DNA of 64,000 nt from assembly GCA_011800155.1 (NCBI GenBank), contig CM022375.1, positions 1,736,001 to 1,800,000 of the forward strand, in the 5' to 3' direction. Below the pieces are notes generated by a model. It was not told the DNA's origin and searched no databases. It saw nothing but the letters and a program-made list of their open reading frames with translations. Numbering within the stretch: position 1 is the stretch's first letter; each line of letters opens with the position of its first letter. The position numbers and the translations under genes were made by a program. Of this stretch, positions 2,039-40,940 are shown in pieces. Source of the DNA: Flammulina velutipes (Eukaryota > Basidiomycota > Agaricomycetes > Agaricales > Physalacriaceae).

Positions 2039-3828
2039 ATGGATACTAACGACAAAGAAAACGACTTTCTGGGTATGGGAAGCCCGTTTTGGCTCAAACT
2101 AGGAATGGAACAAGATCAACTGCATTTCGATTACAATTACTCTTATTCAGGTGAGTGATTCCCTCTGTCATAGGTATGTTAGGATATTGACTTGGAGCGT
2201 AGATCGGGACTCGCCTTTGGAACGTCGAGAAGTATCCCTGTCTCCTTTTGACTACAGCCGAGGTACGCGTCCCTCTAATTCGCGCCGTCTTAGATACTCA
2301 AGATATACAGATCAATACCGCTTCCCAGGGGATTCAGCGATACATAATCCCGATTTCAAGACTTCGCCACTTGGTGCCCTCATGAAGAGGCCACGCGAAG
2401 ACAATGATGAAGGCGAGCCAGACACCGGGACACTGAAGTCACCATTCAAGCTTCCGTCGCGACGACAACGTGGGCCTCTGTTCTCGCCGCCGTCGCGCGT
2501 TCGTACTTCGCCGTTTACCCCATTCGACTCCATAAACTCCCCTCGTCGTCCACCCAAGACGTCCCCATATGGTTGGCGCGCCGCTTCGGAAGCGTCTTCC
2601 TTTGTAGTATCCAGGTCGCCCTTCGACATCGGTGGGGCGCTAGACTTTCCTTTGGATCCAGAGAATATGAGGTGGGGCAGCGAGAGTCCAGTGCTGAGGA
2701 CGGGTGGGAGCGCAAGTAGTGGCGGGAGCTCAGAAGGGACCACTGCATCTCAGCAAGAACAACCCGCCCTGGTACGAGATGGCGAAGTGGACGCTAGTGG
2801 GTCGGATGATTCGGAGTACCTTGCATCTACTCGCGCCTTCGTGACTCCTGTTACGCCTCCGGTCGGAATGAACCAAGAAGGGGATGTATTCAGCGTCGGA
2901 AGCCCGTTAACGCCTGTTCCGGAACGTCGTCAGATCGCGAGGAAGAGGAGGAGAGTTACATGGGCGGGCGAGCCAGAGCTCGAGATACCGATATCAGCCA
3001 GGGTGAGGTTGAGAGCGAATACAGTTGGAGATATCTCGTCCGCGGTTGCTGTTGCGTCGTCGTCGTCATCGTCTTCACCTTTCGAGGGCCAGTATGATGA
3101 CGACGAGGAGCCTGGTCAGGCAATGGGCTCCCGGGCGCTTCCACCGGGTACGGAGATGAAGGATGGATTCTGGCGATGGTATAGGGAGTTTCCGGTGATC
3201 AAGAACGGGGGGAGGACAGGCGGTGGTGCCGTTAGGAACATTCCCAGCGTCGCAGTGGGTGTCAGCAAGAGCGTCGTCAAATCCCCTAGCACGAGGGTTG
3301 AGGCGATGAGCGCGGAGGATCTTTACACGCCTCGTTGGGTCAAAGGCCGGGGAGTTGGAAAATTGGGCATGTGTCCTGTGTGCGGCGAAGAAGGAAAGAC
3401 TCGGTGGTTTGCGATGAAGTTCAGTGCGTACAAGTAAGGGGTCTTTTCTTCTTGGCTAGTTCGTCAACTGATACAAATTTTATAGCTATCATATGCAGTA
3501 CTCGCATGGCATCAGTGCGGCAACATTCCGACCGCTCGACCCTCCCTTGAAAGTGCGTGTCGGGAAGCCGGAGTCATCTAAGGTGACAGCGTCGGCGTCG
3601 AAGGCGGGGCGCTCATCTTCACCGCTGTCTTCCCCTCAGCCTCGATGGAATATCGGGCAGCAACTCCGTCCGGAGAGTGAGAAGCTATACGGATTGTGTG
3701 GCAGGTGTGAGGATTGGGTTCCGGTGGAGGGTGTGAAGGACGTTGTGATGAAGGTGCCCGAGATGGTTTGGTGGAAGCATATTAGAGGGTGCCAGGGGAA
3801 GGAGAAAGGGAAAGGAAAGAGGAAGTAG
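2039..3828 (+). CDS. Rua1-type transcription regulator
   Basis: Predicted 561-aa nuclear protein in three exons: 2039-2150, 2203-3433 and 3486-3828. Both 52-bp introns have GT..AG ends and restore the frame exactly. The first two thirds is low-complexity and rich in Ser/Pro/Arg, with an acidic Ser-rich stretch and a basic patch RKRRRV. The C-terminal third carries the conserved zinc-binding block of the Rua1 C-terminal family (Ustilago maydis Rua1 regulates ustilagic acid synthesis): DLYTPRWVKGRG, CPVCGEEGKTRWFAMKFSAY, then across the second intron YHMQYSHGISA, and finally LCGRCEDWVP with KVPEMVWWKHIRGC. The CxxC, H..H and CxxC/H..C spacing fits two zinc sites. The start was chosen because MDTNDKEN follows stops and a pyrimidine-rich leader; an in-frame ATG at 1637 would add a low-complexity N-terminus. 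Function in this organism is unknown. Confidence 0.85.
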
Positions 3829-5218
3829 CTAGACTGTCGTGTTAGATGTAAACCTGCTTGAACTTTAGACGACGTACGACCTGTAAATTTCAGTCACAAA
3901 ATGCGTCGGGAAGATTGGTCGCGCAAGCTTGAATGATCTCCAAGTCCGGTATTGGGGAGTTGTATGTATCTGCAGCGGTTGATTTGACGGATGTGGAAAC
4001 TCTGTTGAGTGGCGTCTATCTAACTATCTATACAGTTCATTAACAAAGTCACGTATCGTGCCACGCAATGCTGTGACAATCTGGAGGGAATATTCGACAT
4101 TGGCCGTGAACTCCGAAATGAAAAGCTTCTCATCACGTGGGCGTGTTTGATCGGGCGAACTTGGTAACTTGCACTCCCTTCCGCACCAGAAGAGTTTGCT
4201 ATATCTCCCGATTGATCAGTTGACTATTCTTTACCATATGCTGTGGTGTTTAGAGTCGCCGAAGATGTTTGTTTTAGTCGTCCTCGTTTGCCTACGAAAT
4301 TTAAGATGGGGGTCAATTTGTGTGCGTGAAGATTCGTCGTAGCGTTGGTAAGCGTGTGGGCGAGAGATTGATCAGCGTACTGTGGACAGTAATGATGACA
4401 GTCGCAGATCGACAGTCTGCCTCGACGTGAAATAAGAATTCTTTTCCATGACCTTTGAGGTACTTCGAACTTTGGATGAAGCGGCTTCAAGTTCGTTGGA
4501 CCATATCTTTCCTGGAAAATTCATCTGAAAAAAATTACAGCATCGGGAAGACTGACTCACCAATTTGAGGGTGGTTTACTGTCTTCGTCGGTCATCAGTT
4601 GCCTGTATCATATGAAATCGCCTCGAGGCGGCATGGGCGAAGGGGAACGATAATCGCGTGTTGATAATGCACCTCGAACAGTGACGCGTCCCGTAGAAAC
4701 CTGCCAGGAACGTCGATGAGGGTCGGGGAGGTGAGTTAGATATGATAGCGGGTGTGCTTGGGACAGGGCGCACATACTGCGCCCATGCTAGCACGCTGCA
4801 CTAGAGGTTCGAGCGAAGAAAATTGGTGGAGGGAATTCCGATCCACAGTAAACGCTACCCCTGGCGGGAACACCGTTCTCCAGCGTTGGCGATCCAGAAA
4901 ACTGAATGGTAGAAGATCACATCATTTAGCTGACATGGGAAACGATGTAGGAAACGTGTTTATTGACATGTTTACGAGGAATTTCAGCATAGGTAGATCC
5001 AAGATGTCACCCTAGAGAGGAGTAATTGCGTAGTCCTGGTTCGTTAGAGAGAGAGAAGGGCTTGGAAGCAGAAACGAGGCAATGTGTGCCGGAGTTCAGC
5101 CCGGACGGCAGTCCATATCGGGACAGGCAGGCTGGGACCAAATAGAGGCAGCTATCGCAGACATTAGCTTTCGACCTGATTTCGCCTTGGTATAATACGT
5201 TCATCATCGTTCCCGACG
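3829..5218. other. Intergenic region between Rua1-like and telobox genes
   Basis: About 1.4 kb without a gene I can support. A well-formed intron-like stretch lies on the minus strand around 4520-4560 (GTGAGT donor, long T tract, CAG acceptor). It is followed by a 50-codon frame beginning MNFPGKIWSNELEAAS, but the upstream exon cannot be joined without a stop codon and no domain is recognisable. It may be an untranslated first intron or a short non-coding transcript. Confidence 0.4.
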
Positions 5219-7944
5219 ATGTCGCTGGCTGTGACAGCGAAGACGACGACGGCGGCGTCTACAACGACCACAGCGGCGGCGCCCCCAACGACAATACTGG
5301 CGACGACAGTTACGCCGTTGTCGCTGCCCTCGACATCGACGTTCTCTTTCAAAGCACCGTTCCCCGCATCCTTGAAGCAGCGTCGCGTCTCTCTGGCACT
5401 TCCATCGTCGCCCAAGCTGGTACCAGCGTTCAACTTTCGGGACGACACCGGCCTGCAAAGCCATGTCGCAGAAACGAGCTCGACGCCCGAGAAACGCGGC
5501 AAGATGAGGAGAATAACTGGCGAGTCTGACGGCGAAGAGCCGTCCCCGCAGACGGAGAAGAAACACAGGAAGAAATGGTCGGCGGAGGAGACGCAGATGC
5601 TAGTTGACGGATGCAATAAGGTGCGTTGCGTCTAATAATTCCGTCTTGTGCCGGGGCTGACCGCTGTGTAGCACGGCGTGGGGAACTGGAAGACTATCCT
5701 GAGCGACACTGAGCTGCACTTTGACAACCGTTCGCCCGTCGACCTCAAGGACAGGTGCGCTTCTTCATGGCGTCGCCGTTTGGACAAGTTACTGACGCTG
5801 AAGCTCAAAGATTTCGCACATATTTCCCGGACGCATACAAACAGCACTACCCCAATGCACGCACACATCTTTCGAGTAAAGTGCGCTCCACGCTTCCTGA
5901 CGGGTCCTCCCTATTTGAGAAAACACGTTCCAAGAAACGACGGCCCTTCACGGAGGAGGAGGACCGCGCGCTCAAAGCTGGATACGACAAGCACGGCACC
6001 GTCTGGGCCGTCATTGTCAAGGACCCCATTTTCCAGGAGCAGGGCAGGCGCTCGACCGACCTCAGGGACAGATTTCGCAACGCTTTTCCAGACTTGTACA
6101 CAGCCGCGGGTTACAAGCCTCGCGGCAACCCCAAGAAGAAGGTCGTCGAGAGCTCCGGTACAGCAATCGCAAAGTCCCCCATGCGCGCAGCCACAGACGA
6201 CCAGCTCGACCTCTCGACGGGCAATACCCAGCAGCGCAAGAAGCGCCGTTACACAAGCCAAGGTTTACTGCGAGGCGGTACCAAGAGCGTCCCCCAGAGT
6301 GCTGCACCTTCCGACAACGAGGCGTCCGACGGCGAACAGGAGTCTGGTCCTTCCCGAAGCTCGTTTTCCACCGGCCTAGTGCCACCGTACAGACGCCCAA
6401 CATCTGCTGTACCGACGCCCACCCTCTTCCCGGACGATATGAATATGCTCGATCCACACTCTGACCCGATTTCATTGAATTCATCTACGCACTCTGAAAT
6501 CGACTCCCAGTCGCAGGCTTGGTCTTCCGGCCTCGACACACCACTACACTCTTCCCACCATGCTTGGACGGGATCTCCTACTTCGTCTAACGATTTCTAC
6601 ATGAACGCGTCTCCCTCTCCATTCGACAGACGCGATGGACCGAATATCGGTGGAATGGGCATGATCGGCAACAGCGCTTGGGGCACGCAAGACTGGTTCT
6701 CAGCGAATCCCAGACTCGACTCGAGCGGGTCGTCCTCGTCCTACATTGACAACAGCTTCTCTCCTTCGTCCCCCTTCTCCTTCCACCAAAGTCATGGCGT
6801 CGTCGATCGCTATGATCTCGTTCCCAGCTCCTTCTCCCAGGACTTCAACTCGGAGGTCGGGTCGTCTTCCTTTTCCGACGAGATATATCATCCGCGGCGA
6901 GAGTATCATTCAGATTATGCCGGAGATCTCATCTTTGGTACCCGAAGCCAGTCGCAGTCGCTGTTTTACGACTCGTCTTCTTTGAGCTTCGGCCTAGGGT
7001 TGACTGGTATGCAGGCTCACCAGCCGTCTCAGGCGTCTATCCACCCCATGGCGTTACATTCTTCCTCGCTCCCTGGTATCGACGAGGTCGACCTCACTGG
7101 AATCACGCTAAGTGATCAACCAGATGGCTCGCAGGAGAGCATGATCTCGTCGGATGTCGCCATGTCTCCAAGTTTGAAGGACGACGATGGACACGAGGCG
7201 TCGTTCTTACTGGAACAGCGCTTCAGTCTCGACGACCTCGTCGATCTTTCGCAGGAGCTACATGCGACCCCTCCAGCTACCCCCCAAACACGACCAAGGC
7301 GGCTACACCATCTTCATTCCTACCCGATGTCCCACGGACGGTCGATATCTGTTCCTCCGGCAGAGAGGATGGCGACGAATTCTTCACGTCCGTCGCAGAT
7401 ACACGCCAACTCTCAGCCCGAGATTCGACCGTACTCTTTTGCCGATGCGCACCATACACAAAGCGACATTGACATCCATTCAAATCCTCCTTCCGCATTC
7501 ACGCTTCCGGTCACCCAATCGTTCTCCTCGCTGTTCCATACGAACACACAATCGCTTCCCCATACTGGTCCTTCGTCGGTGATGCAAGACATGTCGCGAA
7601 CGGCGAGTGAGATATCGGCGCTCCCGTTCTTGGATCTGCACTACTACGGATCGGGTGCTGGGGTGAATGGGATGGACGCTGAGGAAGCGGACGTGAATCG
7701 GCAGGGCCAGGCCTTGGATCTCGCGTCCACTGTGAGTGGCGGTGGTGGGATGAACATGGCTGGATGGAAGGCTGCGGGTGATACGAGGCGGGTGGCGGTG
7801 AGTGTAGCGCCTGGCCGGACCATGCTGCAGAGGGAGAGGGGAGGTCACCAACGCGGACAGAGTGCGGTCGTGTGTCCTCAGGACCTGATTCGGAGCGATA
7901 CGAATAAGCGGAAGAGGGTGAGCTGGGATGGAGCGCATTCGTGA
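5219..7944 (+). CDS. Double-Myb telobox DNA-binding protein
   Basis: Predicted 872-aa protein, exons 5219-5620, 5672-5754 and 5811-7944; both introns (51 and 56 bp) preserve the frame. Two adjacent Myb/SANT repeats lie in roughly residues 115-275. The first reads KKHRKKWSAEETQMLVDGC, then GVGNWKTIL and the telobox-like SPVDLKDRFRTYFP. The second reads KKRRPFTEEEDRALKAGY, VWAVIVKD and RRSTDLRDRFRNAFPDLY. VDLKDR/TDLRDR is the hallmark of telomere-type Myb domains (TRF, Teb1, Tay1 in fungi), which bind TTAGGG-like duplex repeats. The rest is Ser/Pro-rich and probably disordered, with a basic KRKRVSW motif just before the stop. It could act at telomeres or as a promoter-binding factor at telomere-like boxes; both roles are known in the family. 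The first exon encodes a low-complexity Ala/Thr N-terminus, so the true start could be slightly different. Confidence 0.85.
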
Positions 7945-8206
7945 TTGATTTTTTCTCGTCTTTCTTTACATTGCTTCTCTGGGAGGAACAATGTTGGCAT
8001 ACTTACTTACATGTTTCTTTTATCTCACACACCACATTTTTACATAGGCTACTAGTTATCAGTCTATGCCCACGGAGCTCTCAATGCAATGGATCTTTTT
8101 TACGACTCGACGGCTTAGCCGACATCAGCTGTTTATGTGCTGTCCTAACCTGCTGGGGCTTGTCGCGATATAGCTCGTCCAAGTGACTTCTAGACAACAC
8201 GTGAAT

Positions 8207-10351
8207 ATGGATATCCCCGCACAAAAAACCTTTGCTTCTCTACCCCATCTCATGGAAAAGATAATTCGTCCACTGAATCGTTCCGCGCGGGATTTATACA
8301 TGGTAAGTGTATTTATTACAGGTCGATGGTATGTTGAATCAATCACCAGCGGCGCGCGCTGCATGGCGACGTGCTGGCCATGGAGACACTCTCCCAGGCA
8401 TTTGCGGACGGATTTGCCGGGATCTTGAACGACCTTCTCGCATTCATATCCCAGGTCCTTTCGGAACCATGCCTCGCTCTCGCCAACGCCAGCATGTCGA
8501 CGCTGACACCCACGGAATGGCTGAAGCAGAGCGTAGTGCTGAACGGCAATCGAGCATGCGAGATGGTCCGTTTTGGACTCGAAGCCGAGTATCGCAGGAC
8601 TAGAAAACCACTACCGCCGGCTCTTCTTAATGTCTGCCTCCGTGTTGGTGCTTGGGCCATGATGTTCGTCCAATCCACGGGCATCCACCCGATGACCGTC
8701 CTCTCGTCAATGAAGAGCTTCTAGACACCGGCGGCATGGCTGGCGTCCTACACGCGGTGCTCGTTAATCCATTCAATCAGTATATCATGAAGCACCCTCC
8801 TTATCCGCTTTACAATGTTCTCGTACGCGTCGTCATTTGTCTATCGCGTGGTTACTCTAAACTCGATAAAGAGCGAGCCTCCGTCTTCTGTTCGGTCATC
8901 ATAGTTATGTTGATCGCTCCCAAGTACGACCCGCATCCCAATGGTCTATGGTCTGTCCTAGAGTGCCACAGCGCTGACCTCGCAAAAATAGCTGTTGATA
9001 GTATCACAGCATACATCGGGATTCCGATCGGCAAAGGCTCCAAAAATCTCGATAGCATCGAGCCGCAGATCCTACAGCTCGCCGATACATTAATCTGTAT
9101 CCCCTCAATCCGGCGACAGCTCTCAGCACGGGGCATGCTTCCCCTACTCTGTCGCCTTTTCCACAAGGAGGTCCGTGAGGAGATAGAGAAAGACATTGAA
9201 AGAAGTAACGTGGTGCATAAAGATCTCACGTTTCTACTCAACAACCACCTTCAAGCGATCAACAAATTTCTGGATGGGGGACACCCGTCTGCGGCGATAG
9301 CTCTCGAAGCGCGTATCCTGCCGAATCTCCTCCGTACCCAGGCGGTGTTGGATGATCCTCGAGCTGGGGGGATCTCCGCCTTGGGACTGCGTCAGTCGGT
9401 AACCGACGTCATCTACAACCTTGAAGTACAGCTCTTCCATCGATCCACCCTCCGCGCGTTCCGCAAATCGGAACGCTACGTCAATACACTCGTCGCAGAG
9501 GGTGCTGTCTTCCAAGGAGCAATGTGGAAGGGTTTCAGGCAGCTTCAATTGATGGCTGACAGGCGAACACGGGAGATGGAGGCAATGGATATGGAACGTG
9601 TAGCATGCGCAAACCCTTCCGTAAGTGTTTTTTTGTGGCACAAGGTATATCAACGCTTACGAAGCAATGTACTACAGTGTACGTCGACTGCAAAGAATGC
9701 TGATGCGCGCATTAGACGATGCTCTGGCTGTCTCACAGTGGAATACTGCTCCCGGAAATGCCGTCGCGCACATTGGTCGACAGGAGGTCATAAAAAGAGC
9801 TGTGCCGCTATTCGAAGCCTGCGTGATTGTCTGTCTCTTTACTATGTTCCAAACATTTTGCTTATATTCTTGTAGCGGGATCAACACTTGTTCCTCCCTG
9901 TACACGGGATATGTGCTTCATCTACTTTCTCATCAGGCAAGAGATGGAGAAGGAGCATCTAGATATACTGGAAAAGCTGTCTCAATTCGCAGGGCTAGAG
10001 ACACTTCCCGAATATCCATGTGGCGCCATCCGGGAACCCTCTGAAACATATCCAGAGGATTGGATTTTTGCTAACACTGTTCTAGTGTTTGATTTTGCTC
10101 CCTGGCCTACTAATACCCAGTCTTTCAAAATACACTTCAGAGCCTTCTCTATGGAAGACTTTTGTGATCGGCTCACCTTTTATAAGGAATGTGACATTGA
10201 CTTTCAGAGAATTGAGGCAAGGGTTGAGGCTCAGAGGTCAAGGGGTCCGTTGGTTGCTATTATGGCATTTTCAAATCTCTTGGACTTGACAAATAGAGAA
10301 TGTATAATTAGTCAGGTGTATTCATTAGATTATTCTCAGGTTGTTAACTAG
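8207..10351 (+). pseudogene. MYND zinc-finger protein gene with two frame breaks
   Basis: Agaricomycete-type MYND protein, possibly broken. The C-terminal MYND finger is clear once an intron at 9621-9677 is removed: VACANPS joins CTSTAKNADARIRRCSGC, then VEYCSRKCRRAHW and GGHKKSC, giving the C..C..CxxC..YC..C..W..H..C pattern. A second intron (9823-9875) leads to the tail, which contains FIYFLIRQEMEKEHLDIL and ends at 10351. Upstream, residues from PAARAAWRRAGHGD shift frame near 8370 (continuing METLSQAFADGFAG) and again near 8690 (VQSTGIHP to DDRPLVNEELLD), and no convincing intron explains either shift. Two indels, or an unusual gene model, are needed. MYND domains mediate protein interactions; the long helical N-terminus has no known function. 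The gene ends five bases before repeat DNA begins. Confidence 0.6.
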
Positions 10352-25847: not shown

Positions 25848-28800
25848 GAGTACTCCGGCGACATTAGTTTTGCATGCGACACCTGGACATCTGGCAACCA
25901 TTACACTTGGTTTGTCATTACGGCACATATTGTCAAAGACGGCGAGGTGTTCAATTTCTTGTTGGACTTCATTGAAGTTCCAAAGGTACGTCTTTTAGTC
26001 TACTTGCATATGTTTTTGCTAAGATAACTTGCAGTCACACAGTGGTTTCAATCTCGCGGACGAGTTTGCGCAAGTTATCATTGAGTTCAGCTTTGAAGAC
26101 AAAGTGCTAGCTATTGCTGGCGACAATGCGTCAAATGTTGATACAATGATTGACGAACTCGAAAGCAGCCTGGAATCGTTTCTCGGGTGTCGTGCTCGTG
26201 TACAATGCTTTGCGCACACCGTCAATCTGGTCGCCAAAGCCTTTTGCAGTTGTTTGATCCAGCAAGGAAAAGGGGCAAAGATGGTGCTGGCGACACTGAC
26301 GATGTTGAATTCCGTCAGTTCAGTGCAGGCGATGACTATGAGCTGACAACACCCTAGGAAGTTGTCACAACTAGTTATCATACTCTACTTAGAGGGGGTC
26401 CTAACTAGTTATCGTCCTCATATTACAAGGTCTCTAAGTACAGGTCAACAATTAGATGTCTGCACGCTCCGGTGTGCTGGGGCAGGTAGCTCTAGCTAGG
26501 CTATATTGGGATAGGACTATTGATGGTATTGATGGGGCCAGATGATGGGGAGCAGGGGATAGGGGAAATGTGGCACCAGGAAAATCCGGACCTAGGGATT
26601 GATGAGATTGATGGATTGATGGGCAGATAGGATGGGGATGGGGGATTGATAGCAGGGTACAATTGTGGTACCAGAATAAATACTGGGCTATTGCCAGGGT
26701 ATGAGGAGGGTATGAGAGGGGTGATTGTAGGTTGAAAAATAAAATTCTTTCTAACTATCAGAAACATGAATGGGGGTGTGGCAGCTACTGAAACCAACAA
26801 AAAAACGATGTGTGGCGCATTTTTAATTGAGGAGCACATACCTCGGATAAACCTGGGGTTGGTCTAGATGTCTTCCTATTGAAAAATGGATGTGTGCAGC
26901 ACAAAGAACCATGTAAAAACACGATGATTTGGCTGAGAAACAAGCAGAACATTATTGAAAATTCATCAAAAAGCACCAAAAAGGGAGCAGCACTTTGCCC
27001 TCGCTTAGGGGTGACCTGGAACCACTTGTAGGTCGTCCAGACACCTTTGGGGCATTGTATATGTCACTCAGTTAGGTCCCCAGGTCAACAGAACCCTTGG
27101 ATATGATCAAAATGCCAAAAACCCGGACCACTCAGCTTTGGGCCACACTATCAACTTGCCATGACCTGGGGACACCTTATATTCGAAGATATATGTATAT
27201 AATGCTCTAATCATGAGTTAGATGAAGTCTGGAGTGTGAAAAATGCAGTCAAAACCTTGGATATACCCCAAATAATGTCCCCCAAGAAAGCACACACACC
27301 ATCAACTTCCCCTGACCTCTAGGTTGTCCCAATGTGTTCTATTATCATTGTAGATGATGTATTAACACCCCATAGGTTCCCCTAGTGTGTCAAAATGTGA
27401 ACATTCATGATACTAGGTGAACCCTTATTCACTCTTCCTCCTCAAGTACACTCACTGGTTCGCATATCTACATATTTAGGACTGTTCTAATAGTCATTTG
27501 ACATTATATAGATGATATCTTGGGGCCCAGGTCATAGGTAGACCTCAAAGATACACCCCTTTGGTACATGGTGAGGATATGATCTTTGTGCTAATTCTCA
27601 AATGTCTATGCTCAGTATTGACGGGTGTTCAACCTGGGACATATTCTGGGAGGCTAAAAACACATTTTATGAGGTTAAAATCAATAGTCCACCACTCAGA
27701 TATGTGATAGTTGGGGTGGTTCTTGGTGTAGAAGGAGAGGATATAAATTATTGTACCATTTATATTCGCATTTTGCCACACTGGGGGGACCTCTGGGGTG
27801 TTAATACATCATCTATAATGATAATAGAACACATTGGGACAACCTAGAGGTCAGGGGAAGTTGATGGTGTGTGTGCTTTCTTGGGGGACATTATTTGGGG
27901 TATATCCAAGGTTTTGACTGCATTTTTCACACTTCAGACTTCATCTAACTCATGATTAGAGCATTATATACATATATCTTCGAATATAAGGTGTCCCCAG
28001 GTCATGGCAAGTTGATAGTGTGGCCCAAAGCTGAGTGGTCCGGGTTTTTGGCATTTTGATCATATCCAAGGGTTCTGTTGACCTGGGGACCTAACTGAGT
28101 GACATATACAATGCCCCAAAGGTGTCTGGACGACCTACAAGTGGTTCCAGGTCACCCCTAAGCGAGGGCAAAGTGCTGCTCCCTTTTTGGTGCTTTTTGA
28201 TGAATTTTCAATAATGTTCTGCTTGTTTCTCAGCCAAATCATCGTGTTTTTACATGGTTCTTTGTGCTGCACACATCCATTTTTCAATAGGAAGACATCT
28301 AGACCAACCCCAGGTTTATCCGAGGTATGTGCTCCTCAATTAAAAATGCGCCACACATCGTTTTTTTGTTGGTTTCAGTAGCTGCCACACCCCCATTCAT
28401 GTTTCTGATAGTTAGAAAGAATTTTATTTTTCAACCTACAATCACCCCTCTCATACCCTCCTCATACCCTGGCAATAGCCCAGTATTTATTCTGGTACCA
28501 CAATTGTACCCTGCTATCAATCCCCCATCCCCCATCCTATCTGCCCATCAATCCATCAATCTCATCAATCCCTAGGTCCGGATTTTCCTGGTGCCACATT
28601 TCCCCTATCCCCTGCTCCCCATCATCTGGCCCCATCAATACCATCAATAGTCCTATCCCAATATAGCCTAGCTAGAGCTACCTGCCCCAGCACACCGGAG
28701 CGTGCAGACATCTAATTGTTGACCTGTACTTAGAGACCTTGTAATATGAGGACGATAACTAGTTAGGACCCCCTCTAAGTAGAGTATGATAACTAGTTGT

Positions 28801-29746: not shown

Positions 29747-31462
29747 CTACGTATAGATGATGTTCTGTCCCTGTGGCGTAAAATATGTCGCTTCAACTGT
29801 TCTCGTTTCTCCCTGCCTTGTTTCAAGTATAGCGCTGATGCACGCTGTGACTGAGCTCCAGGATTTCTGCCCCTCCGTATCAGACTCGTCATCCTGTAGA
29901 CCTTCAGTGAGGAAAGGATCATCTGCAAATGCATCAGCGTCATCTTCGACCCCACGTTCCTTTGCTTCACGGTCCATAGTAAATGAATGGATACCAATGT
30001 ATGCAGAGATCCAATATGTGGCCAGTCGGTGTGTGCGAGCATTGCGGATGATGAGAATGGAAGCAACCTTTGAGGAAGCCGATGGCATGTTCAGACCGGA
30101 TGTGTAGTTGCGAAAGATGTGTGTTGAAAATTTCGTTGTTAGCCTGGTAATGCTCAGGCTTCTTGTACGGTGAGACGATCCAGTCACGTATCTATCACTG
30201 AAGTCAGTAAAAATACTCCAAAGAATGCCAAATATAACACACAGGATAGGCAGAGTCTGCTCAGACCCACTCACCCTCATCCATAACAGTGTCGTGCTCT
30301 TGAGCTATCCGAGTTCCTTCTCATGCAGATGCATCATGTGTGCTTCCTGTGTGCCCATATCTAAAGTCAATGAGACATAGATTGGGGAGATTGATGATCT
30401 GCAGGTAGTAGGTAAGAGAGGATGGCCACAAAGTTGCGTACTTGGATGTTAAGAGAGTAACGACATTTCCGATCGAAATAGCTCTCTCTGAACCAGAACG
30501 GCTGAAAGGCAAGTGGTACGAGAGTACCATCGACGAAGCACTATTCACCGCGCCATGCATGACAAGAGTGTTTCTCTACCCACTCCTTTGCCTGCTCCTT
30601 TTCGATGCTGGTCGGATAGTGCACTGCCTTATCCCTGAAATCTCGGTGTAAGACTGTGGTAGTCACTCGCTTCGTTCAGAGCTGCACAGTGCCCTTGCCA
30701 ATGCCAGCCCAGTTTACAACTTCCTGTACACTGGTTCCACTTCCATCATGCCTGAAGTGATAGAGAGCTACGGCAACCTGCTCCGGTTTGCTGTGCATAG
30801 TCAGAATTATTCTGGAAGACATCATCTGTGTCGATGGCTGAGACTAGACAGTCAAAGGTATGTGGGGAGATATGGAGCTGCTGGTGGAAGTGATCTGGCC
30901 GCTCTGTTTTGAGTGTCACAAGAGTGTAGTGGAGGAATGATTCAGTGGGGCGAGGAATGCATGTCCGTGAGGTTTGGTAGTGAGACGAGTACATCTGGTT
31001 GATTTCATTCTGGACTGCTGTCCTGAGCTGATTAGTTGACGGAACATCGCTATCATCGTCGTTGTCGGTATCCCAGCCATCATTGTCTTCATCGTCTGAT
31101 CCAAATGGAAGAAGCTCTGGCATCACCGGCTCGCTGTGAATGCTAGAAATGGAGGTGTCGTCATCGCTGTCAACATCGCTGTCAGAGCAGTCTGAAGAAA
31201 GTTCCTCCATCTCAATATCTGCGTCCGAGCCTTCCATGTCCCCTGATGAGCTGGAGGAGAGCCCAGAGACACTACTGGTGTCGTCCCAATTATCCAACAG
31301 GTCCCTCAAGCTCTGGGCTGCCTCCATCTCTGCAACAAGCCTACGAATCTCCCTCATTTGTGAACGACGGTGCTGTGCATGATGACGGCGGGCACGAAGC
31401 CATTGAAGATAGTTTTGAGTCAGAGCACAGCTAACAGCAGCACGTTGATGGCCAATTGGCAT
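29747..31462 (-). pseudogene. PIF/Harbinger transposase with Trp-to-stop mutations
   Basis: Minus-strand DDE transposase of nearly full length. The start at 31462 reads MPIGHQRAAVSCALTQNYL, followed by a very acidic Ser/Asp region and RPDHFHQQLHISPHTFDCL. Towards the C-terminus come CFVDGTLVPLAFQPFWFRES (first catalytic Asp), IINLPNLCLIDFRYGHTGS and THDAS (second Asp), EGTRIAQEHDTVMDEGEW and ADSAYP, then RTHRLATYWISAYIG. At three places a tryptophan expected from the family is a stop: before CFVDG (TAG), after THDASA (TGA) and before ADSAYP (TGA). All are single G-to-A changes. The element is therefore dead. The gene converges on the accessory gene. Confidence 0.75.
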
Positions 31463-31628
31463 TGTGATGGTGTTGTCAGGGAGTGAGAAGCAGTAGAACC
31501 GCAGAAAGATAGATTAGAAAATATACACATTGTTGTCGAAAACGAAGAAGGTGCGGTCAATCAAATCGGTTATTCTAGCCCGATTACCAAACAACTAGGC
31601 TCGATTCATCCGGCTTTGTCATCGTGCC

Positions 31629-31826
31629 TACTTCCAAAGCCGGCTGGGCGCGCATGGTCTCGATTTGGGTGAACACGCTAATCAAGACGTTGGGACTTCA
31701 AAAAAAGTAGCTCGAAATACGGAAAAAAGTGTAAAAATTGATATAATGAAAACAGTTCTAGTAGTCTCCAAACGTCCAAAAAATAAGTTATCTCGAAGGC
31801 ATTTTTGGAGTTTGACTTGGTCGTCG
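31629..31826 (+). repeat. Left terminal inverted repeat of the DUF6589/RecQ element
   Basis: Outer end TACTTCCAAAGCCGG, inner end TTGACTTGGTCGTCG; AT-rich centre. Pairs with 38253-38450. Confidence 0.9.
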
Positions 31827-31860
31827 CTGTGTATTTCTCGGCCTTAACGGACGTAAGCGA

Positions 31861-34572
31861 TCAACCACGCCTGCCGTCGTCCTGTCGGCGAGTTGTCTCT
31901 TGTCCGTTACGCTGCTGCGAATATCGTTCTTCCTCTGCCGTCCCCCTGCCAGCTCGATAGCCCGGACCTTGCTGCGAAAACTGATACGAATATCCCACTG
32001 GATATGACGGCGGCCAATATTGAGGCTGTGACGCGCTCGGATAGTAGTTGGAATCCGGAGGTAGAGGCAAACTATCCATTGCTGGCGCCTGCATATTGAC
32101 CACCCTAGCAGCAGCAGATACATTGGGAATCAAGGGTGCATACGGATAGTAGCCATATCCAGGTGGTGCATAGTTTGCAGAACTTCCATACGGGTTCGTT
32201 GGGTATATTGGATTGGAAGGTGGCCGTTGTACGACCGCCCGCGATTGGGAGGCCTATAAAGGTTCGTCACACTGGTTTTGGCTGATGGTCAAGGAATTGA
32301 CTTACTGCTACTGCAGCGAGCGGGTTGTTACTTGGCTGATGTTCCACCAAATCGGCTCGTGGTCGCTGCCGGGGTCGAGCTGTATCAATACCGCTGCCTT
32401 CCAACTCATGGCCATCACCCTCTAGTTCGTCTGCGCTACGCTTTTTCGCCTTCGGAGGCATAATAAGAGGAGGAATATCTAGGGTTTTCATGTGAGTAAA
32501 CAATTCATCGCCTAGCTCCTCCCAGCGTATCCACAAACTCCCAATTGCGTTAGCTAACATCTCTTTTGACACTACAGGTCCAATGGATGCCAACACCTCA
32601 CAGATATCATCAGGGAGGAGCGCAGTTGATGACCATTTAGCCAGGCGGAATCGCGTCTTCTTGATATCCTTGCGCCATTCGCTCAACGCCATGAGGATAC
32701 TTTCCACGGGATTCCCTCTTCTTAGCCGTTTCGCTCTCGTTTGCGGTGCAGCTATTGGTGGACGCGATAAATTGAAGAGAGAGCTGTCGCAGATATCACA
32801 GCATGGCACACTTGGACCTGTTAGGTGAATGAGCTTGGTATATAGGCTTAGCACTATACGATGCTCACCTTGCGTTTGTGTAGGGTTCTTGAATATATCA
32901 TTCAGCATGTCGCGTCGACACGCCTGTGCTTGAATGTACTGATAGATACCCTCTCCATGGGCGTCTTCCGGTACATCTACATGGTCGATTGCTGGGGTCG
33001 GCATTTCATCGGACTTGCCAGCACTGTAGGCACCTCGCTGTTGGCCATGGTCAGTAGCATAATTGCGGCCTTGACTAGGACCTTTTGCAGCACGTCCTCT
33101 ACCGCCACGGTATCCTCCTCGTCCACCACGCCCACGTCCTCTAGCTGCAGGAGCCACCATCTTGGACGCGAGTACATCCACAGCAAGCTCATTGGGGTTG
33201 GACGTGTAACTTGACTTCTCGACAAGCATAATGGCCACCCCATCGCGTCCAGGCCCTCGGGCGGCACGTCCGGCTCTTTGAACCCATGTCGAGAGGTTCG
33301 CAGGGGCCTTCCACTGGATAACAAGGTCAATATCTGGTATGTTGCACCCCTTGTTCTTAACATTAGCAGGATATTTATCTACATTGTTAGGATGTACAAC
33401 GCACCATTCCAGCTGCATCAGTGCACACCAAGACTCTAATAACGCCAGCCATGAAGAGTTTCATTGTTGCGTCTCTGCACTTCCGCGACAAGACTGCGTT
33501 ATACGGTCTGATGACACCTCGAGATTGGTAGGCTTCGGGAACCCGCATGTTCAGGTAGTCTGTCATACGAGTACCATCCTGGACGTCGTCCGAGTATATA
33601 AACGACTTTTTGATCTCGTCTGGATGGCGTATCCCATTGGGGACTATAAAGTCTATGTCTCGGTAAGTGTTCATTGCATGCTGCATCGAGCGAACGATCT
33701 GAGAGACGTTACAGCGATTGTTCCCAATGTTGATGAACTCGTATGTTCTAGGATCCATTTGTAGTTTGACGACGATGTCACGCCACACACGGGGAGTGAG
33801 TGTGGCAGATACGGCAATGAATGGGGTACTTTTCGGGAGGAAGCCACGAAGAATCCCAAGACTGGCGTACTTCTTCCGAAACATCGCTCCCCATTGTGAT
33901 ATGCAATGTGCCTCGTCGATGAATATGGACAAGCAGCGTGCGCCAAATGCTGGCTTGCGTAGAACACCGTCGATGAAGCGCCGACTGAGAAGCATTTCAG
34001 GGGATATTAGAACGATTTGATAGACGCCATCAACGATGTCCTTTGGCATGTAAGTTTCATTCACTCAAGCTTGATATGTTACTGACCTGCATCAATTTAG
34101 GCGAACATCCTCCCTTCTGGCCGTCGACCTTCGTCGCTCTCAGACCAAATTCCTCATGAAATGTCCGGGCCTTTGCGCACAATCAGTAGTATAAGCGCAT
34201 GTAGGTGGCGATATGACAAACATGTTCTTCGTGCAGAACCAACAGTGGCGACACCATAAGCGTAACCTTTCCGGTACTGGACTTCAAGAGGAAAGGACCT
34301 GCTGCGATGCCTGTCTTTCCGGCGCCTGTGGCAGCATGTATAATCATGTCCTTCCGAAGCACTGCTCCTCGCATACCCTGTAGCTGATGTGGTCTGGCGC
34401 CTGTCGCCCAAGTCTTGAAATTCTCCTTTACCAACTGTGGTAATGCTTCGAGTTCCTTCTCAAGCCGCTTTCGGTGAACTCCCGTCAACTGTGCGGATCC
34501 TTTTGTTTTATTCTTCGCCTTTGTGCTGTGGCTCTGTGCTGTGACAGGGGTTTGTTGCGCTTGGGTGTTCAT
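31861..34572 (-). CDS. RecQ-like DEAH helicase of the TIR element (intact, six exons)
   Basis: Exons 34572-34222, 34170-34087, 34040-33405, 33349-32869, 32817-32306 and 32253-31861 join into an 818-aa protein; all five introns (46-55 bp) are GT..AG and in phase. Helicase motifs are complete: PHQLQGMRGAVL (Q-like), ATGAGKT (Walker A), FIDEAHCISQW (DEAH box), AVSATLT (III), DAAGMGCNIPDIDLVIQW (V) and WVQRAGRAARG (VI). After the core come an RGG-type segment (ARGRGRGGRGGYRGGRGR), a Cys motif PCCDICDSS resembling the zinc-binding part of these fungal helicases, and a Tyr/Pro/Gln-rich tail. It would unwind DNA with ATP, presumably during transposition. The first ATG is 14 bp from that of the divergent DUF6589 gene. 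Many relatives exist in mushroom genomes as repeats. Confidence 0.9.
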
Positions 34573-34619
34573 GACTGTCGGGAAGAATGAGACAGGGGTC
34601 TATTTCTCTTCCTTTGACC
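34573..34619. promoter_or_regulatory. Compact divergent promoter between helicase and DUF6589 genes
   Basis: Only 14 bp separate the two outermost start codons (34572 minus, 34587 plus). If the inner ATG at 34620 (MSSPLPP) is the true DUF6589 start, the gap is 47 bp. There is no room for two ordinary promoters, so transcription must start from shared or overlapping sequences within the 5' coding parts, or the leaders overlap. Confidence 0.5.
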
Positions 34620-37600
34620 ATGTCATCTCCTCTTCCTCCATCTAGCCCAGTGCATGAAATCACTCCAAGTCCGCCTTACAAACCGCAGGAGCTCGACGAC
34701 GACGACGATCTATTTGCATTCGAATTCACGAGCCCAACTGCCCCCCAGCGCCTTGTGTCCTCCTCGGATTTCGAAGATCATGTACCGCTCGCCCAACTAG
34801 CCCTTCGGCGGGCTCATAGAGGTCCATCGCCGGATAGCTCCCCTCACGCAATTTCGACGCCCACACGGAGCCGTGGACGTCAGCAGAAACAACAATCGAA
34901 TTATAACCCTCGAAGCTCGTCAATGCCACCTCCAATCCAATCTTCCCCTTCAGTTGCACCCCTTACTCCTCTCAAAATCATGGCGTCAGACGACTCTGTC
35001 ATGTATTCACCTCGTACGGAACGCAAATACAAGACACAGCAAAGCCAGTCCAGACGACGCCAGACACTCACTGCTCAACGGCAGCAGGATGCTGCCATTC
35101 TTTCTGCGAAGAAAACTGCAGTGTTCTCGTCCATCCTTTCAGAACTCGACAAGGAAGGCTATTCACTTGCCGAATTCCTTGACCATGTCTTCAACCCACA
35201 GACTGATCTATCTCGTGATTGGCGGTACCGTGGATTCTTCGCGCACAAGCAGACAGTCACCCGGATCCTTGACTACTGGGTGTCTTCAGGTTATCCAGAA
35301 AGTACCCGGTCACTGTTGAGGTCTTGGGCTTTGCAGTTGACGTCAGAGAATGTCTATCAGGAGTCAAAGCGCATCACTCTCAGTGGTCTGCTTTCGATAG
35401 GTAACAAAGTCGTTAACGAAGCCTTCTTTCTTGATTATAATCTCGTCGATCTGGTCAAGAAGCTCAAGGGAATGGCGCCAACTTTGTTCAGTGTCCTTGG
35501 GAGTGCTGCATCTGGCCCTCGCCGGTCTCAACACCTGAAATTAACGAAAGAATCTATTCAACGGAAGGCAACTGTACGTGATATTCTTTCCATGTTTTTG
35601 TAGTACTTACCAATTCATTCAGCTTATCGGTGCCGCTGCACTTGGTCTGTTCAAGGCAGCCAGCCAGCGCAATACCTATGCACAGGCAGTCCACGGAACT
35701 TACTTGATGGCGACGGGTGCTCAGCGACAGCATTTTGGTGTTCTCTCATCATTGGGCATCACGATGAGCTATTCGAGTGTCATCAATCGTTCAAAAGGAG
35801 ACCAGTCGGACGTCAAGGAGCACACGGACAAAGGGAAGACAGTGGAAACAGTTGTAAATCTATTTCTCCAGTCAATCCTCATCTTCGTCAATAACAGTCA
35901 TCTTAGAAGGATCCTAAAACCGTTGAGCCTGCTCCGGAGGCTTCAGTCTACATTCCGACGGATAAACGCAGTAAACGTGAACGGAAGAGGACAGCTGGGA
36001 CACTCTACAAGCTGTCTAATGCCTGTCGTGCAACTGCACGACGCATCGCGGCAACAATGGTTTTCATAATGGTTTATGACAATATCAATATGATGATTCG
36101 TGTCGCCGAACAGGTACTTGGTCGCAAAGGTCAGTCTGGGAATCATTCTAGGTGTACGCTTTATTGACACAAAAGTATCAGATGCGCAAGAGAACGGCAC
36201 TTGTGCTACAATCTTTCCTCTGCATAATACACAACTCGATGATCTCCGATTGGATCGCCTGGAAGAAAGCATAGCAAATGCGCCTCAACTTACTGTCGAC
36301 CATCTCAACTTGACACCCGATGAAGCTGAACTCCACCTCCGAGCTATTCGTTACACCATCCTGCGTATCATTATCTATAACGGTGGTGACAGCTTCACAA
36401 AATGGAAGAAAAAACTCAACGAAACCCAGCCAATGAGTGGTGATGTCATTGACGTTCATACCACGTCTGTTCATCCTTCCCCGGCCATGGAAATTGACGA
36501 GAGCCGGACCACAGGGAATATTGATGTTGTCGAGTTTGTGATGGATGAGCTCCAGGTGGATAGAGAGGAAGCGGAGCGTTATATTTTCCTGATTGGCGGC
36601 GACCAGCTCTCTCTTGCACGGCAACGTTCCATTCTAATTGCGCGGCTTGGCCACGAAGCAGGACACGAATCTTGGAAGCGAATCGTTCTAGTCCCAGGTC
36701 TCTTCCATGCCAAAATGGCAGACTGTCACGGGGTGCTAGCGACCCATTTCGGCAAGGCCAATGCAGGAGGTCGAAGTCCTGGCGGACTCGCCTTTCAAAA
36801 TCAGTGCTTAGATCGACTTCCCATTGTCCTCACTTCCCTTCCCACCTTTCGTACCTGCCGCGACATAATCATGGTCTCTCTGAATGCCCGGGTCCTTCAC
36901 TGTCTTCTTCTTGTTTCTGGACACAAAACTCTGGACGAATATCTCTCCAAGGTCACTACATTCGAGGCGTTAGACAATCACGCAGGCCAGATTCTTTCCC
37001 AGTTCACGGACACCGAACTTGTTACAGAGCTCCGTGAGAAGCGGGCACCAGAAGAGCGACGACGGGCAGCAGAGACAAAGGAAAAGAAGGAATCTAAATC
37101 TGCTGAACCGCTACCCCACGTCAAGGCTGGTGATATGGTATATGAGAACGCGATTCTCTTCATGAGGGATGCACTCCTCACGCGGGAATTTGCTGATGCT
37201 ATCAAGTGCGGAGATAGTGGACGGGTGGTCATTGTTCTAAAGCAATGGGCATTTGCATATCGCGGACACGGGCGCACAAAATATGCCCACGAGATGCTAC
37301 ATCTCATCCATAACCTCACTAATGTCTGGCCCGAAGAGATCAAGTACGTTGTCCTTGGGTACCGGGTTCTCGCGTTGTCCGACCATTGATTATTTATTGC
37401 AGGAATGCCGTTCTCCAAAACTGGTTGCTCTGTCCATTGGGGCGGCCATTTTCATTTGTAGAGCTTGATCTCGTTCAAGAACATTTAAACTACTGGGTCA
37501 AGGTGAGTCTTATTGCACTCCAATTGTTGAAAAGCTTCTAATCCTGGTATTGTCAGAGGGTCTACAAGGCAGACGGCAATGCTCATTCATGGGAATGGCT

Positions 37601-38213
37601 GGAGATGGTATCACCATGCATTGATGTGTTACGACGCCTCGCAACTCGCATTCATAGTGATCTTGGATCCGCGCAAGGGACAAAACATGCCACACCCGAT
37701 GTCAGCAAAGACATCGCTGTCTTAATGGACAAACTTGCTGAACATCAAGTCTATGAATATCTGGAGGGCCGTGTCTTTGACGACGACGAACAACCTGCAC
37801 CGGACGCTATCTCTGTTGGATACGTAGCACTGGCTCAGAACCCCAAGGCTTCGTCAAACCCTATCAATGAATTCAATGCACAGTTTGAACGCATCAAATC
37901 TCGTCTAGACATGACGCCGATCACAACACTTCTTCAGCAACACGAGTCCGGAACTCTCATCCCCCCCGTCGTGTTCCCACCCAGATTTGACAGTACCATG
38001 CCGTCCACACCTACGGCCTCGGAGGAAGACTTATCGGCGCAGGAAGAAGAAGAAGAGAGTTTTGAAGCTGATGGTGATTTGTTTGCGGACTCGCCGACTC
38101 TGCAGTGCATTGATGAAGGTGATGTTGCGCTGGACATGGATCATATTGAACTACTTGATCTCACGGTAGATGATGGGATGGATGACGATGCGGACGAGGA
38201 AGAGCGCTGGTGA
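34587..38213 (+). CDS. DUF6589 protein, candidate transposase of the TIR element (intact, six exons)
   Basis: Exons 34587-35573, 35623-35853, 35907-36129, 36182-37343, 37403-37502 and 37557-38213 join into a 1119-aa protein; all five introns (49-59 bp) are GT..AG and in phase. The N-terminal 130 residues are disordered and Ser/Pro-rich. A helical segment follows (FAHKQTVTRILDYWVSSGYP), then the DUF6589 core: MVYDNINMMIRVAEQ, GTCATIFPLHNTQLDDL, IFLIGGDQLSLARQRSIL, VLVPGLFHAKMADCHGVL, MVYENAILFMRDALL and GHGRTKYAHEMLHLIHNL. The last 80 residues are strongly acidic. Conserved acidic residues in YDN, GGDQL and YEN are placed as in a DDE/D RNase H fold, but this is inference. With the RecQ-like helicase it is the only gene of the element, so it is the best transposase candidate. 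Confidence 0.88.
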
Positions 38214-38252
38214 TCACGCGGGATTAGGTCCGAAAAGCCTGCGCATCGAACA

Positions 38253-38450
38253 CGACGACCAAGTCAAACTCCAAAAATGCCTTCGAGATAACTTATTTTT
38301 TGGACGTTTTGAGACTACTAGAACTGTTTTCATTATATCAATTTTTACACTTTTTTCGGTATTTCGAGCTACTTTTTTTGAAGTCCCAACGTCTTGATTA
38401 GCGTGTTCACCCAAATCGAGACCATGCGCTCCCAGTCGGCTCAGGAAGTA
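38253..38450 (-). repeat. Right terminal inverted repeat of the DUF6589/RecQ element
   Basis: Mirror of 31629-31826, starting CGACGACCAAGTCAAACTCC and ending TCAGGAAGTA. Confidence 0.9.
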
Positions 38451-38514
38451 ACAAAACCCACGCTCTTACCAAACAACCAAACAACACGGTCCGGTTACTT
38501 CCTGAGCCGACTGG
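38432..38514. repeat. 21-bp inverted repeat at the right TIR edge
   Basis: CCAGTCGGCTCAGGAAGTAAC (positions 38432-38452) is answered by its exact reverse complement at 38494-38514, separated by 41 bp containing two CCAAACAAC motifs. It overlaps the outer end of the DUF6589/RecQ element and lies within the presumed Harbinger right end, which carries the same GGTTACTTCCTGAGCC motif. Confidence 0.7.
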
Positions 38515-38607
38515 TTAACGAGTCTACCAAACAACTAAAATATATATATATCACCAAAATCGCCTCCGAAATCGTTTTTTATGCTCGACTTTGACCGGGC
38601 CTATTAT

Positions 38608-38975
38608 ACTATTGCTTTTAATGAGACATTTATTTTCTGATATCTTTAACTGAAATGTCAAGTATTATTGAGACCTCTAGCTACTGCTTGAGAATGAACT
38701 GAAGGATTCCTCTTGTGAACCTTCAGCTAAGCTTGAGCACAAGACTATACCTGAAGTTATACATAAGTTTCCAGGCAGTAAAGGTTCAAGACAAGATAAT
38801 ACCTACAGTATACTTTAGTTGTTCGAGGTATACTTAGTGTTACTATTAGTTCACCTCAGTCTGCTTCAGGTCTAACCTTGATCTGAACCTTGTCTTCAGG
38901 TTCAGCTACACCTGAGTAACCTAAGTGTACCTGATAGACTTAGGTTAACTGAGAGCAGGAGGGCATTTCCTGATG
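38608..38975 (+). repeat. 1.46-kb interspersed repeat, right part (interrupted copy)
   Basis: Resumes after the TATTAT duplication and ends GCATTTCCTGATG. Together with 11903-12995 it sums to 1461 bp, against 1455 bp for the intact copy at 57159-58613. Confidence 0.65.
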
Positions 38976-39770
38976 TCAGGCCAAATTTCTTGTTAAGCCA
39001 AGTGCTGAGTTTAGCTCTTATGCACCCAACATTGTCAGCTAGTACAGTTCACTAGTCATACACCACACTTGTATAGACTTAGCTACCAAAACACAGAGAA
39101 CAGAGGTCAACCATCGAATCTATCAAAGGCATGTCATGTCATGACTCATGATCTCAGGGGAAGTAAACCTTATTCCTGAATCACGCTCTGATTTCCTGGA
39201 TCTCATCAATATAATCCAGATCAGGCAGATCTCTCAGATCTAGCACAGAAACCCAAGTCTCTCTGTCGGACAGCATTTGGGCTCTGGATATGAAGCACTA
39301 GAGGCACTGTAAGACCTATCTAGGAGTTGAGCCGCCAACACGACGGACCCGATTCCTTGGCGGGGCATTATTGAAAATAAGGCCTCTCTGTCCAGAAAGG
39401 AAAAACACAAGGCAACAAGGACCATGCTGGCACCCATTGAGGACCCGCACGGACAGTCTAAGAAAGGAAAGGTACATGTGGAACAATCATGACAGCTGAC
39501 CTTGGATCACTCAGGAGTTATGTACCCACGCGGTACGGCACTTCTCATTGGGTGCATCCAGGACAAATACCTAGCTAAGAATGATGAAGGTCATATGGCC
39601 CAGGGCACAACAAGGTTCACGGGGCCCACCAACGTGGCGGCCGCTGCTGTGGCGGGTAAAATACAGTAAACCAGCTTTAGTTATGCTTTTTAGAAATACC
39701 TATATAATACACTTGTTAGCATACTGTAAACTAGCTTAGACCCCCAGTAGACGCAGCCCACAAACCAAGT
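38976..39770. other. Region between repeat and gag remnant
   Basis: AT-rich at first, then GC-richer from about 39240. Frames are broken, but the composition from 39240 on (Arg/Pro-rich codons) suggests decayed upstream gag/leader sequence of the element represented at 39906. A short insertion-like stretch bounded by CAGTAAACCAGC and ACTGTAAACTAGC lies at about 39665-39740. Nothing definite. Confidence 0.3.
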
Positions 39771-39905
39771 CCAATACCCCGAAGATCTCACACCCCTCCA
39801 CCAGACGAACTTAGTCCGTTTGCAGACCGATTTGATCTCGATCAAGTCCACCCGCTATTTGAGAAATTTAGACAGGCTGTACCTTTAGGACAACCTCTAT
39901 TCCCA

Positions 39906-40940
39906 ATGGCAGATCAGGAAAACAACAATGCAGGAGGGAACACGGGCCAAGCTGCTGGACAGCCAAACCTAGCTCCCGTTAACAATTTTGTGAACCAACT
40001 TAGTGCGCAAACACAAGGGGAAATTGCGGGCAAGAAACTACCGGCGCCTGGAAGCAAAGATGCCCCCTGCTTCAAAGACGGGGGAATCAGAGAATACTTC
40101 ATGGGACTGGAATGGATCTACTCAGTGAACCGCGTAACTAACTCTCAAGTTCAGATCGAAATTGCAGGAGTCTATGTAGACTATGACATACGGAGACAGT
40201 GGGTCGCCCTACCTGAATACTCGGCGGGTGACTGGTTAGCATACAAAAAGGTCATCCTTAAGCTATACAATAAGGGTGAGCAAGATCAAGAATATACTAT
40301 GCGAGAGGTAGAAGAACTTTTGACGCACTACAAGGCGCGTCCCATAGGCTCAAAGGATAGAATGATGGAGTTCCACCGAGAAGTCGTGCACAAACTTCAA
40401 TATCTAATCGATATTGGAGATGTCTCTCAGAAATCGGTACTCGATCTGGTCCAGCAGTGCTTTGTGGGACCTGCTTGGGCGGCGATCTACAATGATTTAC
40501 GAGCAATCCCTGTCCCTCCAAATAGACCGCTGGGACAGCGGTGGACTATGTCACTCAAGGCCGCGCTGGAGCTAGGAGTCCCTTTCGATCCATCCTTTTC
40601 CATCACTATGGAAAGTACAGACAAGGGTCAGACCAAGACAGTGGGACTGGCAAGGAACTTGGCATTTGACTTCGGAGGAATCATATATTTCCTTCAAGTG
40701 CACATCATTAGGGATCCAGTGTATGAAGTGCTACTGGGAAGACCCTTCGATGTAGTACTACGTGATGGAGGAGAGGTGGCTCTAGTGGTTGGGCAGACAG
40801 AGAATAGAGAAATACAGATCGAGCGCACCTTTGTGCCAGAGAAATCCCGTCAGACGTTTGATAGTCAAGCGCTAACCAGCTTGTACCAGTTCTCCAATGG
40901 AGTTAACAAGGCCGCTAAAGCATTGCGGAACGGGTTTTGA
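39906..40940 (+). pseudogene. Gag fused in frame to protease remnant of a Ty3-type element
   Basis: 344-aa frame, MADQENNNAGGNTGQ onwards. The open frame extends upstream to about 39785 with SPFADRFDLDQVHPLFEKF, so the ATG may not be the true start. Residues 1-210 are gag-like (REYFMGLEWIYSVNR, YTMREVEELLTHY, VLDLVQQCFVGPAW). After ELGVPFDPSFSI the sequence is the second half of a retroviral-type protease (NLAFDFGGIIYFLQVHIIRD, YEVLLGRPFDVV). The nucleocapsid and the active-site half of the protease are missing, so an internal deletion joined the two in frame. The frame ends next to a hAT-like TAGGGTTTAAAGG terminus. Confidence 0.7.

Follow-up and report, generated by a model that had tools for sequence, protein, structure and literature searches.

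Introduction

Repbase places Academ with the DDD/E transposase superfamilies (PMC9587614), and a 'RecQ Helicase in Academ' already appears in a list from 2013 (PMC3627910). The target site duplications are 9 or 10 bp long in AcademH and 3 or 4 bp in AcademX, a difference that is tied to the encoded helicase or nuclease, respectively (PMC10045372). AcademH is described from Basidiomycota, Ascomycota and Mucoromycota, where its copy number is low (PMC10799480). A study of Marasmius oreades noted putative non-autonomous Academ elements and used a published profile to look for autonomous ones (PMC8290104). Here we analyze a stretch of 64,000 nucleotides from Flammulina velutipes (contig CM022375.1, in our numbering C8:1736001-1800000 of a 38.1-Mb genome in 23 contigs), which is called the window. 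It contains a 6931-bp element with one gene for a DUF6589 protein and one for a RecQ-like helicase. The element is probably an intact, low-copy DNA transposon of the AcademH type.

Results

The element extends beyond its long inverted repeats

A repeat search in the window detected two inverted arms of 198 nt, which are 97% complementary. A recount of the arms gave mismatches at 6 of 198 positions, the same number as in an initial annotation of this DNA. That annotation also took the arms as the termini of the element, a view that was dropped: the element runs on for 33 nt on the left and 76 nt on the right, up to a 9-bp direct repeat. The three other copies with long ends (L018, L019 and L020) also keep common sequence past the repeats as far as their own 9-bp duplication; this sequence measures 31-38 nt at the left end and 102 nt at the right end. 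The features that define the element are as follows.

31587-31595, no strand: left target site duplication, 9 bp (CCAAACAAC), identical to 38527-38535
31596-38526, no strand: whole element, 6931 bp, TAGGCTCG...CGAGTCTA, with ends common to L018:1732-8775, L019:932-1505 and L020:942-1516
31596-31628, plus strand: left cap, which lies outside the long repeat and whose arm forms a CCGGCTTTG/CAAAGCCGG hairpin with the repeat start; present also in L018, L019 and L020
31629-31826, plus strand: left arm of the 198-bp inverted repeat (repeat search, mismatch count)
38253-38450, minus strand: right arm of the 198-bp inverted repeat (repeat search, mismatch count)
38451-38526, minus strand: right cap, which lies outside the long repeat; 38494-38514 and 38432-38452 form a perfect 21-bp hairpin
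38527-38535, no strand: right target site duplication (CCAAACAAC), the same 9 bp as on the left

A search of the genome with the 198-bp repeat resulted in eight matches, which are the arm pairs of the window element, L018, L019 and L020. L018 is on the same contig as the window. Its arms lie about 6.9 kb apart and flank another DUF6589 gene; the locus is a second two-gene copy of 7044 bp. Two short elements lie on C6, L019 with 574 bp and L020 with 575 bp. All four end alike, with TAGGCTCG as their left and CGAGTCTA as their right limit, and all four are bordered by perfect 9-bp direct repeats (CCAAACAAC in the window, CCATTCAAC at L018, CCATCCGTC at L019 and AGTACATGA at L020). Nine bases would agree at random at a given point with a probability of about 4e-6; the repeats in 4/4 copies are therefore not due to chance. 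Because of a TA next to the target, up to 2 more bases on either side could be counted into the duplication in the window; the other copies fix the length at 9 bp. A search for an empty site with two of the five joined flanks found nothing besides these flanks and an interspersed repeat. At about 38602-38735, the right flank of the window element runs into an interspersed repeat, which recurs elsewhere in the genome as 14 near-full matches, 13 of them at 94-97% and the other at 85%, and as two partial matches.

L019 and L020 agree in 566 of 577 alignment columns; hence they moved or were copied recently. A 146-bp miniature on C2 joins 44 bases from the start of the left end to the final 102 bases of the right end, and the long repeats are nearly gone. 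GACCACATA flanks this miniature on both sides only if 11 extra bases on the left (TAGGCTTTGTA) are counted as part of it. If it transposed in its present form, the outer ends are sufficient for movement and the long repeats are dispensable; alternatively, its middle could have been lost after insertion. The census of the family in the 38.1 Mb, in which all copy counts are lower bounds, includes two two-gene copies, two miniatures of 574 and 575 bp, the 146-bp miniature and one fragment resembling the left end (C13:661436), for which no second duplication was found. The miniatures presumably moved in trans. Together with the common ends and the 9-bp target duplications they make the window element autonomous-looking, in agreement with the initial annotation, which had called it an autonomous mobile element.

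The ends of the window element can fold into hairpins. Compared with 200 single-base shuffles per end, the right end with its perfect 21-bp stem has a z-score of -6.9 and the left end one of -1.9; stable folds were also seen at the ends of L018, L019 and L020 (z -3.1 to -4.6). At stem positions 8, 9 and 15 of the repeat the inner arms of the two window ends differ, and there each outer arm matches its own inner arm by eye. As a general requirement the hairpin caps are unsupported: the ends of L022, a divergent element described below, show no fold stability beyond the shuffles (z +0.7 and +1.6), and in the 146-bp miniature the left hairpin is gone (z -0.7), with a z-score of -3.1 on the right.

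Two divergent genes fill the element

Exactly two genes with six exons each lie between the repeats, as first annotated. The helicase length of 818 aa stood, whereas the 1119 aa given for the DUF6589 protein became 1107 aa in the present model, a matter of splice-site choice. The short distances between genes and repeats were likewise confirmed, with 34 and 39 nt from stop codon to repeat.

31861-34572, minus strand: RecQ-like helicase gene, 818 aa, six exons (34222-34572, 34087-34170, 33405-34040, 32869-33349, 32306-32817, 31861-32253)
34573-34619, no strand: 47-bp gap between the two divergent genes, presumably a shared promoter
34620-38213, plus strand: DUF6589 gene for the predicted DDE transposase, 1107 aa, six exons (34620-35573, 35623-35853, 35910-36129, 36182-37343, 37403-37502, 37557-38213)

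The proteins were compared with Pfam in six open frames of the element at E ≤ 1. The frame of the main exon matched DUF6589 (PF20231) with an E-value of 5.9e-99, and the helicase matched DEAD/Helicase_C, with RecQ, BLM and WRN as its best matches in the PDB. Neither a MULE domain nor any other transposase domain was found by Pfam in these six frames, which did not cover the short exons separately. Of 276 homologues of the DUF6589 protein, the 120 listed carry PF20231 only. The closest relatives among the matches listed are from mushroom-forming fungi, judging from the species names, and the best match is from Hypsizygus marmoreus (55% identity); where a name is given, it is hypothetical, uncharacterized or 'DUF6589 domain-containing'. 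A PDB sequence search with the DUF6589 profile and a search of PHROGs gave 0 matches each.

DUF6589 has the predicted fold of a DDE transposase

A structure prediction, which the initial annotation had proposed as a check on its idea that DUF6589 is the recombinase, bears this idea out. The prediction was made on a homologue that is 54% identical to the window protein; it gave an RNase H-fold DDE transposase, with Hermes, Tn5, P element and RAG1 as the best matches. The DUF6589 protein is thus very likely the DDE transposase of the element. The predicted fold and the conserved acids fit a DDD/E enzyme with the following candidate residues, the third of which is the least certain.

36078-36080, plus strand: D452, proposed first catalytic Asp (VYDNIN)
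36601-36603, plus strand: D609, proposed second catalytic Asp (GGDQLS), D in 238/238 homologues
37479-37481, plus strand: E882, proposed third catalytic Glu (DLVQEHLNYW), placed from the range ends of structural matches

The third acid was placed by range-end arithmetic, not by a residue-level alignment, using the catalytic residue numbers of Hermes, RAG1, P element and Tn5. E882 is a Glu in all 46 homologues with a letter there, which cover three clades; other acids are equally conserved. In P0009 numbering the four acids past the second Asp that are conserved in each of the three clades are D598 (48/49), D625 (49/49), D690 (46/46) and E694 (46/46). E694 was preferred because the range ends of the first model fall at or near it (694 for Hermes, 693 for mouse RAG1, 695 for the P element and 689-690 for Tn5). 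A second model, in which the matching Glu is 574, agrees more loosely, with Hermes rows at 563-574, RAG1 rows at 560-577 and the P element at 564. E602 (P0009 numbering) was rejected as the third acid; one clade has E in 116/117 sequences and the other R as its commonest residue (53/117), with E in 9.

Helicase genes adjoin DUF6589 at divergent loci

The Pfam profile of DUF6589 gave at least 20 matches in at least 10 loci of the genome. At 6 of 10 loci a helicase gene adjoins DUF6589, head-to-head in the window and at L018 and tail-to-tail at L022, L023, L024 and L027. The helicase at L023 is under the Pfam cut-off (Helicase_C E 0.0037) and was found with the window helicase (E 7.8e-6). No helicase was seen within about 10 kb of DUF6589 at L021, L025, L026 and L028. 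With 32 helicase-like matches in the 38.1 Mb, we calculate a chance below 1% that one lies within 5 kb of a given locus. The partnership of helicase and DUF6589 that had been claimed from the window is thus conserved, as the linkage recurs at divergent loci.

One of these loci, L022, is a divergent DUF6589-helicase element with its own ends (2083-9638) and a 9-bp duplication (GGGGAGGCC). Its terminal repeat CAGACTCCTTCCCTGTCTC is identical on both sides, and the AGACTC in it resembles the right end of the window element, TAGACTCG. No exact 9-bp pair with at least 7/8 matching end bases was present at L023, L024, L025, L026, L027 and L028 (controls 0/8). When the scans of L023, L024, L025 and L027 were relaxed, they yielded one match, compared with one in the control, and wider flanks of L024 on C8 and L023 on C10 revealed no duplication. 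A tentative duplication at L027 (AGTTTCTTG, ends TAGTCT) in the wider flanks was not counted; we estimate that about 0.4 are expected by chance. L021 (C9:1250419-1258561) has 87-bp inverted repeats 8.1 kb apart, which flank a DUF6589 gene and a Gag-like frame, by eye that of a retrotransposon; the repeat edges lack a 9-bp duplication, with one weak pair elsewhere. At L026 (C1:2457779-2460827) a DUF6589 fragment lies inside a 722-bp inverted repeat, which is 97% identical, is 3.0 kb across and starts with CTAGGGCTTTAAGG.

Both genes are under selective constraint

Between the window and L018 the transposase genes differ with pN 0.20 and pS 0.82 over 1071 codons and the helicase genes with pN 0.27 and pS 0.78 over 723 codons; saturation affects the synonymous sites, and next to small exons a few codons were read in the wrong frame, slightly inflating the nonsynonymous share. 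The stops in a straight-through reading of L018 are either intronic or located at helicase exon 2 and transposase exon 5, for both of which another frame is open. Judged from these substitutions, both the transposase and the helicase are kept functional.

Discussion

Relation to AcademH and other transposons

The element in the window is probably a new member of AcademH, with which it was compared by description. This assignment is made because the RecQ-type helicase, the predicted DDD/E transposase, the target duplications of 9-10 bp, the low copy number and the occurrence in Basidiomycota all match the descriptions; we infer membership in Academ from this agreement. The encoded helicase belongs to superfamily II (RecQ-type). 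Duplications of the AcademH length border 4/4 long-ended copies and L022, and the 146-bp miniature when its 11 extra bases are included; the family is low-copy in this fungal genome. No tested trait conflicts with AcademH. The initial statement that the element belongs to a class that cannot be assigned to a described superfamily is therefore unsupported. No Academ-named or animal Academ proteins occur among the DUF6589 homologues listed (the best 120 of 276, 120 of 240 and 102 of 102), and Repbase may well hold DUF6589-type proteins under the Academ name. The link from Pfam DUF6589 to a DDE transposase is new with respect to the literature searched, where it is not in print.

Other known systems agree less well. 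AcademX is in the same superfamily (PMC10045372); it has a nuclease and duplications of 3-4 bp, whereas the window element has a helicase and 9 bp. KolobokH resembles the element as a fungal DNA transposon with a RecQ helicase, and one red-algal Kolobok is described with the helicase on the complementary strand. In the window, however, the helicase is a separate, divergent gene on the opposite strand, and the duplications are 9 bp and not the TTAA of Kolobok. Hermes, a hAT transposase with a large helical insertion in its RNase H fold, is the best structural match to the DUF6589 model, which has such an insertion as well; hAT elements usually make 8-bp duplications, and no hAT family matched the element frames scanned with Pfam. 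Helitrons share an encoded helicase, but they are not known to have inverted repeats or target duplications, both of which are present here, and no HUH protein matched in the scanned frames.

It is unlikely that the element represents a DDE lineage outside Academ, so far undescribed, with a RecQ helicase. The name DUF6589 occurs in none of 5.39 million papers in the literature searched, hairpin caps outside the long repeats are unmentioned in the excerpts that describe AcademH, and the likeness to AcademH is one of description. Against this stands the agreement of helicase type, duplication length, host group and low copy number with what those excerpts report. A narrower version, in which the lineage is distinct from Academ, this subfamily of it ends in asymmetric hairpin caps outside the long repeats and the element's own helicase is needed to open or resolve these caps when it transposes, is slightly more doubtful still. 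MULEs typically have long terminal repeats and a 9-bp duplication, so that repeat length and duplication would also suit a MuDR/MULE element with a captured helicase. This origin is very improbable: the six scanned frames have no MULE-type transposase domain, the homologues listed carry PF20231 only, and the recurrent linkage at divergent loci argues against a one-off capture of the helicase. Least credible is a chance pair of a host RecQ gene and a DUF6589 gene between the repeats of another element, such as the Harbinger whose presumed gene start is near the left end, because L018 has the same two genes with the same ends elsewhere on the contig, which already refutes this possibility and the ownership of the repeats by the Harbinger that the initial annotation had considered, and because the junctions carry 9-bp duplications while Harbinger-related elements are reported with 0, 2 or 3 bp (PMC12730594).

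A possible mechanism

The AcademH-type element offers, as directly observed, its ends, duplications, genes, fold prediction, gene linkage and selective constraint; from these, catalysis, the mode of excision and the role of the helicase can be pictured as follows. The DUF6589 transposase would recognize the outer ends, which are asymmetric (TAGGCTCG... at the left, TAGACTCG... at the right), cleave there and join the ends to the target with a 9-bp stagger. The staggered joining is assumed because DDE enzymes work in this way; the duplication itself is observed, and repair of the gaps would generate it. The RecQ-like helicase, which should matter because it is conserved and repeatedly linked to DUF6589, may act together with the transposase, most likely by unwinding the DNA of the ends, which in this subfamily can form hairpins, or by aiding gap repair. 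Short non-autonomous derivatives with the same ends would be moved in trans. If DUF6589 proteins are DDE transposases with a helicase partner, such genes in many mushroom genomes become transposon genes. A concrete element with its true ends and natural miniatures allows a direct test of the role of a helicase in DDE transposition.

Neighborhood of the element

A Harbinger-like gene is located at about 29747-31462 on the minus strand, and the left end of the AcademH-type element lies about 130 bp upstream of where this gene presumably starts. We take this gene to be of the Harbinger family from the motif VDGTLVP...YFDRK..YSLNIQ in 30367-30540; no Pfam match exceeded the cut-off in the two frames scanned. 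On the other side of the element, 39735-40940 on the plus strand is an open frame of 401 aa that resembles a retrotransposon Gag/protease by eye, with no Pfam family above the cut-off. The segment 26500-28667 is a large, near-perfect palindrome with 780-nt arms that are 99% complementary (26634-27413 and 27753-28532); it is flanked by arms of 145 nt, which are 98% complementary.
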